The notes beneath the pieces were generated by a model. It made no database searches, had not been told where the DNA came from, and worked only from the letters and a program-made list of their open reading frames with translations. Below are positions 31,153-34,810 of a stretch of DNA of 38,139 nt, piece by piece (position 1 is the stretch's first letter; each line of letters opens with the position of its first letter). A program made the translations under genes and the position numbers. Source of the stretch: Gemmatimonadaceae bacterium (GTDB lineage Bacteria > Gemmatimonadota > Gemmatimonadetes > Gemmatimonadales > Gemmatimonadaceae); contig JANYFO010000030.1 in the NCBI GenBank assembly GCA_025362635.1, positions 1 through 38,139 of the forward strand, read 5' to 3'.

Positions 31153-31677
31153 GAGGGCAGTATTTGAAGGTGCGAAGTGGAACGCGTGGCGAAAGTGCGT
31201 TTAGCCTCGTTACAGCACACCAGTGCGCGATCGCTTCGCAATCGCCGGTGTTGCTCGTCGAATGGTGCGACAGCGATGCTCACGAAGCCGCCGAAATCTT
31301 GCATCCTGCGGATATCGCGTCACACCCACGTTGAACGTATCAGTTGCCTCGCGGTCTTAGTCGAGAAGCGCGAGCCGTCGACTTCCCCAATGCAGTGCGT
31401 CCGTGCTGGCTGAATTCACGCGCGTGGCATCAAAATGCGTTCGCTCAAGCGTACGCCCGATCTGCGAGCCGGCTTCAGCCGTGAGATCGGGTTAGCGGCG
31501 AGCACTGGCCGGACATGAATGCCGAAACAGCATGTATGCGAGTCACATCCCCAGACGGAAAGTAGGTGTCGAGTCCAGGTCATGAATACATTGAACCACG
31601 TCTGACCGGTGTCCGCAACCGCTATTGAACCCTGTGGTCCCAACACGCCCACAACTGCATCTCCCTCGTCGTCATAC
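31153..31677. other. 525-bp gap without a supported gene
   Basis: This is the longest non-coding stretch in the window, lying between divergent genes. Track ORFs here (31177-31413 plus; 31416-31838 minus) show no recognisable domain and Cys/His/Arg-rich composition typical of chance frames. The one clear structure is a perfect 8-bp inverted repeat at 31456-31491. Promoters for both flanking genes must be here but are not obvious. Confidence 0.5.
31456..31491. repeat. Inverted repeat CCCGATCT / AGATCGGG
   Basis: Perfect 8-bp arms separated by 20 nt in the middle of the 525-bp gap. No T-run follows. It may be a regulator site for the divergent genes, a hairpin, or a decayed element. Confidence 0.45.
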
Positions 31678-32496
31678 ATGAAGAAGTCGCTCAAGCTCAT
31701 TCTCGACATCCTGCTCGGCGCTGTCGCGCCGATTGTGATTCTTAAATACGGGACCGCGCCGCTCGGCACATTGCCCGCATATTTGCTCGCGGCGCTTGTA
31801 CCCGTGGCTTGGGTGCTGCTCGACCTGTTGGTCATCACGCGTCATTTTAATTTCATTTCCAGCTACAGCGGCCTCTCCGCGATCATGCGCGGTGCGCTCG
31901 CATTCTGGTACGTGAGCGGCGCACTGTTCGCGCTGAAAGACAGTGCGAGCTATGCCGTAGCCGTGTTGGTTTTCGGCGGCTCGGCATTTCTCGCGCGACC
32001 AGTCACGCGCGGCATTGCATTCCAGGGCCTCGGTCCCGATACGCCAGAACGTGAAGGCGCACTCAAACGCCTGCTCGACGAACCCTCCATCCGCGTGACG
32101 CTGCGCAATGCGGCGCTGATTGTCGGCGCGACCAATCTTCTGGCTGGCATCGCAAACTACATCATCAATCTCAAAATTGTCGTCGCACCGTTCAACACGC
32201 CGGCGTTCAACGACCAGGTCGCCAATGTGAACGCGATTACACGAATCGCGCTTGCACTGCCGGACATGCTCGCGGTGTTCTGGGCGTTCTCGCTCATGTA
32301 CAAGGCGATGTACGCGTTGCTTCCAGCGGACGATGGCACGGACGCCACTGCGGGCGATTTCTGGCAGCTGTTAGATGCTCGAGAGAAAATCATCGCTTCG
32401 GCCAACCCGATGGCGGGTATGGAAGCGACAGAGGTGTCGGAGGCGTCAGTGCAAGCGCGCGCGAATCGACAGGCGCGGGAAGAATTTGGTATTTAG
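31678..32496 (+). CDS. VC0807-like integral membrane protein
   Basis: A 272-aa polytopic protein. The opening LKLILDILLGAVAPIVILKYG and the LVPVAWVLLDLLVITRHFNFIS segment resemble VC0807-type membrane proteins. About six hydrophobic segments follow, then a hydrophilic tail with METATEVSE-like character. The start ATG at 31678 fits the first helix; the track start 23 codons earlier adds a non-conserved stretch. The TAG stop lies inside the first unit of a TTAGGGG heptamer array, so the C-terminus may have been changed by that element. Family function is unknown and the assignment is tentative. Confidence 0.6.
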   Translation: MKKSLKLILDILLGAVAPIVILKYGTAPLGTLPAYLLAALVPVAWVLLDLLVITRHFNFISSYSGLSAIMRGALAFWYVSGALFALKDSASYAVAVLVFGGSAFLARPVTRGIAFQGLGPDTPEREGALKRLLDEPSIRVTLRNAALIVGATNLLAGIANYIINLKIVVAPFNTPAFNDQVANVNAITRIALALPDMLAVFWAFSLMYKAMYALLPADDGTDATAGDFWQLLDAREKIIASANPMAGMEATEVSEASVQARANRQAREEFGI

Positions 32497-32638
32497 GGGT
32501 TAGGGGTTAGGGAGTGATTCGCGGTACTGGCGTAGCGGATGGGACGATCGCATTCTCATAAGTGGGCGGAGACAATTCGGCGCGTCAGCGAGCAATCATT
32601 TTTCCTACTCCCTAGCCCCTAATCCCTACTCCCTAAAT
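32491..32638. repeat. Element bounded by inverted TTAGGG-like heptamer arrays
   Basis: The ends are perfect 8-bp inverted repeats (ATTTAGGG at 32491, CCCTAAAT ending 32638). On the left, plus strand, are three tandem heptamers, TTAGGGG TTAGGGG TTAGGGA (32493-32513). On the right, read on the minus strand, are five: TTAGGGA GTAGGGA TTAGGGG CTAGGGA GTAGGAA (32636-32602). About 88 bp of unrelated sequence lies between. The left array contains the TAG stop of the upstream gene and the right array contains the ATG of the downstream methyltransferase, so the whole intergenic space is this element. It resembles short tandem or REP-like elements of other bacteria in structure. I know of no named family. 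Confidence 0.85.
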
Positions 32639-33731
32639 GTCTACCATCGTCCGCTCCGAAACGACCATCAGCGAGCCCGCGCCCCGCAGTTTTCCGGCGC
32701 CGACTGACCGCGCGTGGGGACGTCCGCGCGGCGTGCGAGACGCTATCGGTCACGTCGAACGCACGCCGCAATTCACGATCGACGCGCGCGACCAAGCGCC
32801 AGATATGTTTGTCGATCTCGCGGCGACGGATTGGTCGAAGCTCACTTGGAAGGGCGTCGGAAAGCCGTACAAAACGGAGAAGTGGTCGCGCGCACGTCGT
32901 GACTATGAATTGTCGCACAACGCGCCGCTCCCCGTGATTGAAGGATGGCGACTGTTCAACACGGCATTCCATCAATTTTTTCTGACCGATGTACCCGCCG
33001 CGCAGATGCAAGCGCGCGCCCAGCTCACGCATGCGTTGTCGCACTTCGATGCGCACGAGGCGCACGAAGCGATGGAAGACATCGTGCGCCTCGCGGTATG
33101 GAACAAGATCATGCGCGTTGAAGATGCGGTGTGGGACCCACGTGGCAAGCGCGCACTCTTTGCGGGCCTCGATATCAAAAAGCCACGCATTCTGTTTCTT
33201 GGCGCAGCCGATGGATATGAAGCCATGCAACTCGCCGCGATGTATCCAGGCGGTGAGATCGTCCTTGTCGACTATGATGCGTTTTGCGAGACAGATCGTT
33301 TCGGAAAATTTCCGCTCAATTACCCGTTCTTAGGTGTTGACGCATCGACGGGGCACAAGCGTGTGTGGTATCGCGATGAGATGCCGATCTCATTTGAAGT
33401 CGCCGACATTCGCGATTTACGATACGGCAAAGAGTTCGACGTGGTCGTCTCGATCGGTTTGCTCGAACATTTTCCCGACGACCACAAAGCCGAGTGTATC
33501 GAGATGCACCGCAAATTTTTGAAGCCTGGTGGATATGTGATCATGACGACGCCACGTAACCAATTCAAAACGCGCATTTACTACAACATCATGGCCGACT
33601 TCATGAATCACGGATATCGTGAGCTGATGGACGCCATGCAGATGAGCCTTTACTGCTACGAAAACGGTCTCGATATCCTGCGTGCTGGCGTTATTAAAGC
33701 CCACAATGGGCTAATAATGAAGGCGCGCTAA
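32637..33731 (+). CDS. Class I SAM-dependent methyltransferase
   Basis: A 364-aa protein whose C-terminal half is a Rossmann-fold methyltransferase: motif I ILFLGAADGYEAMQLA near 185-200, the acidic ribose-binding VLVDYDAF, FEVADIRDL as motif II, VVVSIGLLEHFPDDH as motif III, and FLKPGGYVIMTTP. The N-terminal 180 residues have no recognised domain but include a His/Glu-rich helix (FDAHEAHEAMEDIV). The substrate cannot be predicted. The ATG at 32637 lies inside the right heptamer array and has no ribosome site; no other in-frame ATG precedes the domain until residue 57. It ends overlapping the convergent ada stop. Confidence 0.85.
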   Translation: MSTIVRSETTISEPAPRSFPAPTDRAWGRPRGVRDAIGHVERTPQFTIDARDQAPDMFVDLAATDWSKLTWKGVGKPYKTEKWSRARRDYELSHNAPLPVIEGWRLFNTAFHQFFLTDVPAAQMQARAQLTHALSHFDAHEAHEAMEDIVRLAVWNKIMRVEDAVWDPRGKRALFAGLDIKKPRILFLGAADGYEAMQLAAMYPGGEIVLVDYDAFCETDRFGKFPLNYPFLGVDASTGHKRVWYRDEMPISFEVADIRDLRYGKEFDVVVSIGLLEHFPDDHKAECIEMHRKFLKPGGYVIMTTPRNQFKTRIYYNIMADFMNHGYRELMDAMQMSLYCYENGLDILRAGVIKAHNGLIMKAR

Positions 33732-34810
33732 CCGTCGCCGAGGAGCACGCCTTCGCGTTGCAAGATGTGGCTTTTTCGCTCAACGCCCCACCGATAGCCC
33801 GACAGCGCGCCCGATGCACGTATGATACGGTGGCACGGAATCGCCATCGCGATCTCATTTGCCGCACACGCGCTTGCCACGGCCCGCACCGCTGTTGGTT
33901 GTCCAATGGCGGCCGCCAATTGTGTGTACGTCATTGTACGTCCTGCCGGAATGTTTCTGAGTGCTAACCAGACGCGCTCTTGAAACGCAGTGCCTCGGAT
34001 GTCGAGCGGCAAGTCCAGGCCATTGCGCGGCGCTTCAACAAACGCCACCACCGTTGACACGACCCGCGTAAAATTCTCGTCATCACCGACTAATTCGGCA
34101 TTCGAGAAGCGACGTTCAAGTGCGTGGATGAGATCATCGGGATCATTGCCAAACTGAATGCTGCACACACCCTTGTCGGTGGCAGCAACGAGCACAGAGC
34201 CGAGGGATGTTTCGCCCACCGCAAAACGCACGGTTTCGCCAAGGCCTCCACCTTGTGCTCGGCGTACGGTCATGCCCATACGTTGCACCGCCCTCTCGTA
34301 AAAACGACTTGACGATGAATAACCGGCATTCACAATTGCTTCGGACACCGTGTCGCCAATGGCCAGCTGCTCGCGCATGCGTCGCGCGCGCACGCCGGCG
34401 CCATACGCGCGTGGAGTGACACCAACCGCTGATTTAAAGATGCGGTGCAAATGAAAGGGAGAAAATCCTGTCCGCTGTGCAAGACAATGCAGCGAAGGAA
34501 CGGGGGCATCGAACGCGATGGTCTCATCAATCCAACGACAGACTGACGTGATCACTTCGACATGCACATTGACATCAATACTTGCTGGACGGCAGCGCTT
34601 ACAGGCCCGAAACCCCGCCGTTGTCGCGTCAACAATTGCGCCAAAATAGGAGACATTTTTGCGGTTCGGGACGCGCGCACCGCATGACGGTTTGCAAAAC
34701 ACGCCGGTCGTGCGAACGCCATACCAAAATACGCCGTCGAGTGACTTATCGCGCTCGATCACGCCAAGGTATCGTGCGTCATCGTCGAACGATGTTGTAG
34801 CCATCATCAT
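33728..34810 (-). CDS. ada: Bifunctional Ada: alkylation-response regulator and O6-methylguanine-DNA methyltransferase
   Basis: Full-length Ada, 360 aa. The AdaA zinc domain has all four Cys: Cys39 and Cys43 in TTGVFCKPSCGAR, and Cys70 and Cys73 in CKRCRP. Cys39 corresponds to the residue that accepts methyl phosphotriesters and switches Ada to an activator. An AraC-type HTH follows (LAQRTGFSPFHLHRIFKSAVGVTPRAY). The AGT domain holds the suicide nucleophile Cys326 in IPCHRIIRASGALSGYRWG. It repairs alkylated DNA and activates its own regulon. Three consecutive ATG codons begin at 34810. No obvious Ada box is recognisable. It lies 96 bp downstream of the small 72-aa gene on the same strand. 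Confidence 0.96.
   Translation of the reverse strand: MMMATTSFDDDARYLGVIERDKSLDGVFWYGVRTTGVFCKPSCGARVPNRKNVSYFGAIVDATTAGFRACKRCRPASIDVNVHVEVITSVCRWIDETIAFDAPVPSLHCLAQRTGFSPFHLHRIFKSAVGVTPRAYGAGVRARRMREQLAIGDTVSEAIVNAGYSSSSRFYERAVQRMGMTVRRAQGGGLGETVRFAVGETSLGSVLVAATDKGVCSIQFGNDPDDLIHALERRFSNAELVGDDENFTRVVSTVVAFVEAPRNGLDLPLDIRGTAFQERVWLALRNIPAGRTMTYTQLAAAIGQPTAVRAVASACAANEIAMAIPCHRIIRASGALSGYRWGVERKSHILQREGVLLGDG

Follow-up and report, generated by a model that had tools for sequence, protein, structure and literature searches.

Layout of the element between P0002 and the methyltransferase gene

In the window, i.e. the whole stretch of 38,139 nucleotides from a Gemmatimonadaceae bacterium (genome G000 below), two short arrays of G-rich heptamers face each other on opposite strands between a membrane-protein-like gene and a gene with a methyltransferase domain. 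The element reads ATTTAGGGGTTAGGGGTTAGGGAGTG ... CCTACTCCCTAGCCCCTAATCCCTACTCCCTAAATG, and direct reading of the letters bears out what a first-pass annotation had described as inverted arrays across about 88 bp. The features are:

31609..32496, plus strand: upstream gene P0002, membrane-protein-like, with the C-terminus ...RQAREEFGI* at the first TAG of the array
32494..32513, plus strand: left array, consisting of three perfect units of TAGGGRN whose G-rich strand is the plus strand (from the sequence)
32514..32601, no strand: spacer of 88 bp, judged from the sequence and relatives to be the methyltransferase gene's native leader
32602..32635, minus strand: right array of five TAGGGRN units, four of them perfect (from the sequence)
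32637..33731, plus strand: downstream gene P0001, methyltransferase domain, whose native ATG directly follows the right array

The imperfect unit of the minus array is TAGGAA. The arrays are not a product of chance, because six of the eight two-unit matches in the window (up to two mismatches allowed; 1.26 expected from shuffles) lie at this locus and 1 Mb of first-order Markov sequence contained no array. A general repeat search gave no repeat by its criteria, the units being too short and degenerate. An Rfam scan of 32300-32800 yielded no match above chance, and neither sigma-70 promoters nor terminators were detected by scans of 32440-32700.

P0002 has no Pfam match; the GTG at 31609 is the longest option for its start, and the gene finder picked 31678. 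P0001 is 94% identical in the sister genome G112, its nearest named relatives being encoded in Gemmatimonadaceae/Gemmatimonas MAGs. At its other end, P0001 overlaps an Ada-type repair gene (33728-34810, minus strand) tail to tail by 4 bp (33728-33731), and there is no array at this border.

The element had been said to supply the stop of one gene and the start of the next, of which only the former proved correct. The stop of P0002, TAG at 32494-32496, belongs to the first unit of the plus array. P0002 retains the conserved C-terminus EEFG[LIM] and is one residue shorter than its relatives: the C-terminus in the genus is RQAREEFGL plus one residue and then the stop, and only the last residue differs here. 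The array therefore occupies the place of the native stop. The right array stops one base short of the ATG at 32637, and relatives without arrays use the same ATG (MATL...); the sister genome reads CCCTAGTCCGATG. Judged by this comparison, the start codon is native and the right array merely adjoins it. The perfect 8-bp outer ends noted earlier (ATTTAGGG/CCCTAAAT) are present in the window, but the sister has ATGTAGGG / CCCTAGTCCGAT; because they are not conserved there, the match is probably a coincidence.

A dispersed family of arrays with strict orientation

Further copies had been suspected, and a search for three perfect units in a row located 118 places in G000 and 128 in G112. The element thus belongs to a family of G-rich heptamer arrays that is lineage-specific and dispersed among gene borders. 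Arrays are present in 23 of the 298 genomes of the phylum, with most genomes of the same genus having none, and separate expansions were found in other genera (G242, G026, G272 and G196) as well as in another family of the class (G032). In the unit TAGGGRN (= GGGRNTA), the R position is mostly A and N is mixed; TAGGGGC is favoured in G242, TAGGGGA in G272 and TAGGGAT in G196. In the literature library searched, we came across no study of such arrays in Gemmatimonadota.

Array statistics cover 349 kb of G000 (90% complete) and 690 kb of G112 (96% complete), consisting of DNA fetched around arrays, in which genes were called with our own simple trained gene finder. We located 145 arrays, 134 of them intergenic, and 52 of these 134 are single. 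The modal number of units is four in G000 and five in G112, that of GGG runs four and three, respectively. Some contigs end in or beside arrays (G112:C1 in L115, G112:C18 in L125 and G000:C294 in L153:16-107). Assemblies probably break at long or repetitive arrays, so that the longest ones are probably under-counted.

The arrays have a pronounced polarity. A gene edge is found within 20 nt of the 5' end of the G-strand in 78 of 123 arrays, compared with 10 of 125 for the 3' end (Fisher p 4e-21), at median distances of 4 and 87 nt, respectively. The same is seen in the genus of G242 (gene edge near the 5' end in 17/21 arrays versus 1/21 at the 3' end), and the rule holds alike for single and paired arrays. 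Inverted pairs elsewhere, also anticipated by the first-pass annotation, were convergent in all 40 cases of neighbouring opposite-strand arrays in G000 and G112. An exact-pattern search of 14 genomes gave the convergent order in ten and the opposite order in none. In other words, the G-strand points away from the gene edge and towards the gap, and arrays at both borders always give a convergent pair. Compact pairs with spacers of 3–26 bp form a size class apart from those with spacers of 42–93 bp.

In reversed-pattern controls (G251, G272, G196 and G112), the GGGAT register was one-sided as well (69 convergent versus 0 opposite). These matches overlap TAGGGAT units in part, and G251 possibly has a separate GGGATNR family.

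Among genes near arrays, 51 stop codons lie inside same-strand arrays, and 50 of them are TAG. Since seven is 1 modulo 3, three successive units offer a TAG in every frame; offsets 0, 7 and 14 are used by 23, 9 and 18 genes, respectively.

DNA between the arms and turnover between sister genomes

When all spacers were compared with one another, only orthologous pairs matched, those of different loci being unrelated. The window spacer is about 92% identical to that of the sister. It contains the motifs CTGGCG and CATTCTC about 25 nt apart (32528-32560), and this combination recurs at the same spacing upstream of P0001 in the array-less relatives L055 and L075. The comparison with relatives lacking arrays, which the earlier annotation had suggested, thus recovered the same native ATG and the same spacer motifs. 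The pair is likewise listed upstream of P0001 in L066, and in other relatives CTGGCG alone is found about 62 nt ahead of the P0001 start. We consider CTGGCG-CATTCTC a candidate for a native promoter of non-sigma-70 type or a leader motif.

Spacers at other loci hold native terminators of unrelated sequence. For example, at one syntenic convergent gene pair, the gap in array-less relatives is mostly 64–133 bp (284 bp in one case), usually with a terminator-like hairpin. In the sister, the terminator lies between two arrays in an 89-bp gap, whereas the gap in G000 is longer (167 bp). As this comparison of terminator gaps with array-less relatives indicates, arrays replace, or squeeze into, free DNA beside genes. 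By the same kind of sequence evidence, the DNA between the arms is native, so that a mobile unit carrying an interior of its own is not supported for the window element.

Orthologous sites in G000 and G112 usually both carry arrays that differ in unit number, as measured on regions picked for carrying arrays and hence on a biased sample. For instance, L162 has 16 units and L174 a shorter array. Whole arrays have also been homogenised differently between orthologues (all TAGGGGA in L149, all TAGGGGT in L125). One presence/absence site was found: G112 has a pair between convergent LysR and RND genes (L116:4875-4973), whereas in G000 these genes have a 46-bp overlap, differ in their C-termini and have no pair between them. 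This one site revealed no clean target-site duplication. In array-less genomes, the nearest LysR relatives do not have the RND gene alongside, and the search brought up no relative that shares this gene order. The difference could equally reflect gain of the arrays or a deletion.

Most orthologous flanks of arrays are 83–94% identical between G000 and G112. Four pairs of regions (L140/L130, L141/L175, L154/L125 and L137/L179) are 98–100% identical, which suggests that DNA was exchanged recently or that the two MAGs were cross-binned there.

Related repeats and possible explanations

The closest parallel is found in the heptamers GGGNATC of Xanthomonas and GGGGA(C/T)T of Nostoc, which are dispersed and about 90% intergenic (Rehm et al. 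2015, PMC4692102). The xanthomonad repeats lie nearer to the ORF that flanks the G-strand on its 5' side (28 versus 160 nt on average) and form convergent pairs, 70 in Xcc and 75 in Xac. Their modal number is four units, 83% are retained with changed length between Xcc and Xac, and some arrays overlap stop codons (PMC4692102). The arrays described here share with them a tandemly repeated unit of seven bases in which GGG is invariant, the dispersed and mostly intergenic location nearer to the 5' neighbouring ORF and, as in Xanthomonas, the convergence of adjacent arrays. On the other hand, the unit TAGGGRN differs from both of theirs, so that the array itself provides TAG in three frames, and a text search of PMC4692102 found no Gemmatimonadota. 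Going beyond that work, opposite pairs are absent over 14 genomes, and the comparison with array-less relatives reveals that native terminators are bracketed. In the positional features tested, the arrays are of the same class as the Rehm heptamers; by unit sequence they are a different repeat.

Other known repeats are more distant. The TAACTGA repeats of Beggiatoaceae, Cyanobacteria and Bacteroidetes (MacGregor 2015, PMC4679880) are also intergenic heptamer arrays, located directly before start codons and patchy across phyla, but they are not G-rich and, apart from one indirect repeat reported, are direct repeats that precede starts. REPINs and RAYT-associated REPs (PMC3116915, PMC3733652) resemble our arrays as short intergenic repeats of high copy number in inverted pairs, but are palindromes rather than tandem heptamers; here the spacer is native, and no RAYT (Y1 transposase, PF01797) was found in either G000 or G112, which are 90% and 96% complete. 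TAGGGRN is not self-complementary and does not correspond to a REP, i.e. a hairpin-forming palindrome tagged by a GTAG-type motif. No RAYT having been found in these two genomes, the REPIN/RAYT reading was rejected; a MITE is likewise not supported, the copies having no interior sequence in common. The likeness to the vertebrate-type TTAGGG telomere is confined to a G-run with TTA/TA spacing: the unit here has seven bases rather than six, and the arrays are degenerate, bacterial and internal to contigs between genes, the few at contig ends looking like assembly breaks. No relation is implied.

How could such arrays arise and persist? The first-pass annotation had considered a mobile unit similar to MITEs or REPINs, i.e. 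a foldback element in which the convergent pair moves as a whole and single arrays are decayed pairs. Strict convergence, the separate size class of compact pairs and the presence/absence site in G112 would fit. However, the spacers share no homology and hold native terminators and leaders, PF01797 is without a match in G000 and G112 (5 of 14 control genomes have one), and the absence at the LysR/RND site may equally be a deletion, all of which makes a foldback element quite unlikely. It had also been proposed that the G-runs could form quadruplexes. As a general explanation, a quadruplex of four G-runs, whether in DNA or in RNA, would modulate transcription or translation, a role also suggested for the Xanthomonas and Nostoc repeats, for whose own unit Rehm et al. 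give CD evidence (PMC4692102). Four is the most frequent number of GGG runs per array in G000 (21/64), and the minus arm in the window has four. The plus arm, though, has three runs in the window, whereas that of the sister has two; the capacity to form a quadruplex is therefore not conserved at this locus. Moreover, 30/81 arrays in G112 and 14/64 in G000 have fewer than four runs, and the strand relative to transcription differs at stop and start borders, so that a single role at the RNA level cannot fit all arrays. We regard this explanation as somewhat doubtful.

A neutral repeat that originated by chance and expanded by slippage in tolerant DNA, with promoters and terminators filling the rest of the gap and so leaving it at the edge, would account for the shifts in unit number and letters and for the different homogenisation of whole arrays between orthologues; besides, the array-bearing sister gap is not longer than in most array-less relatives. 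It predicts neither the strict orientation, with 0 opposite pairs in 14 genomes, nor the finding that several genera have related TAGGG units, and can be entertained only tentatively. The polarity would be explained if a dedicated process, e.g. templated 3' extension or an unknown transposase, laid arrays outward from gene borders, with the same strict polarity across Gemmatimonadota, Xanthomonas and Nostoc and the arrays acting as frame-independent stop cassettes and transcription insulators. This is improbable in our view.

We propose instead, with a probability of roughly 0.6, that the element is one member of a family of TAGGGRN border arrays with gap-ward polarity that bracket a native promoter or terminator, are kept by slippage and serve as backstop and insulator. 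Replication slippage and local homogenisation would retain and resize the arrays, and an array at a gene end would act as a backstop for translation arriving in any frame. In read-through RNA from P0002, the arms could pair as a long hairpin and insulate the methyltransferase gene from upstream transcription, whereas a P0001 mRNA begun inside the spacer would hold the C-rich arm only. The hairpin predicted for the read-through RNA has –66.8 kcal/mol and 22 consecutive pairs (z –4.4; 0/200 shuffles), which makes an insulator role plausible. In G000, own arms paired better than permuted ones (p 0.017), whereas G112 gave no such difference (p 0.29); arm composition was unmatched in this comparison. 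Co-evolution of the arms is thus weak in G000 and absent in G112, with no pair-specific signal beyond the consensus that would speak for selection of the hairpin. Nor does hairpin formation explain the polarity, because the opposite order would fold equally well.

These findings extend a little-studied class of repeats to another phylum and add a property to it, namely that the TAG of the array serves as a stop in whichever frame the gene arrives. The strict edge-to-gap orientation can thereby be put to the test at gene pairs that carry arrays in some species but lack them in others.
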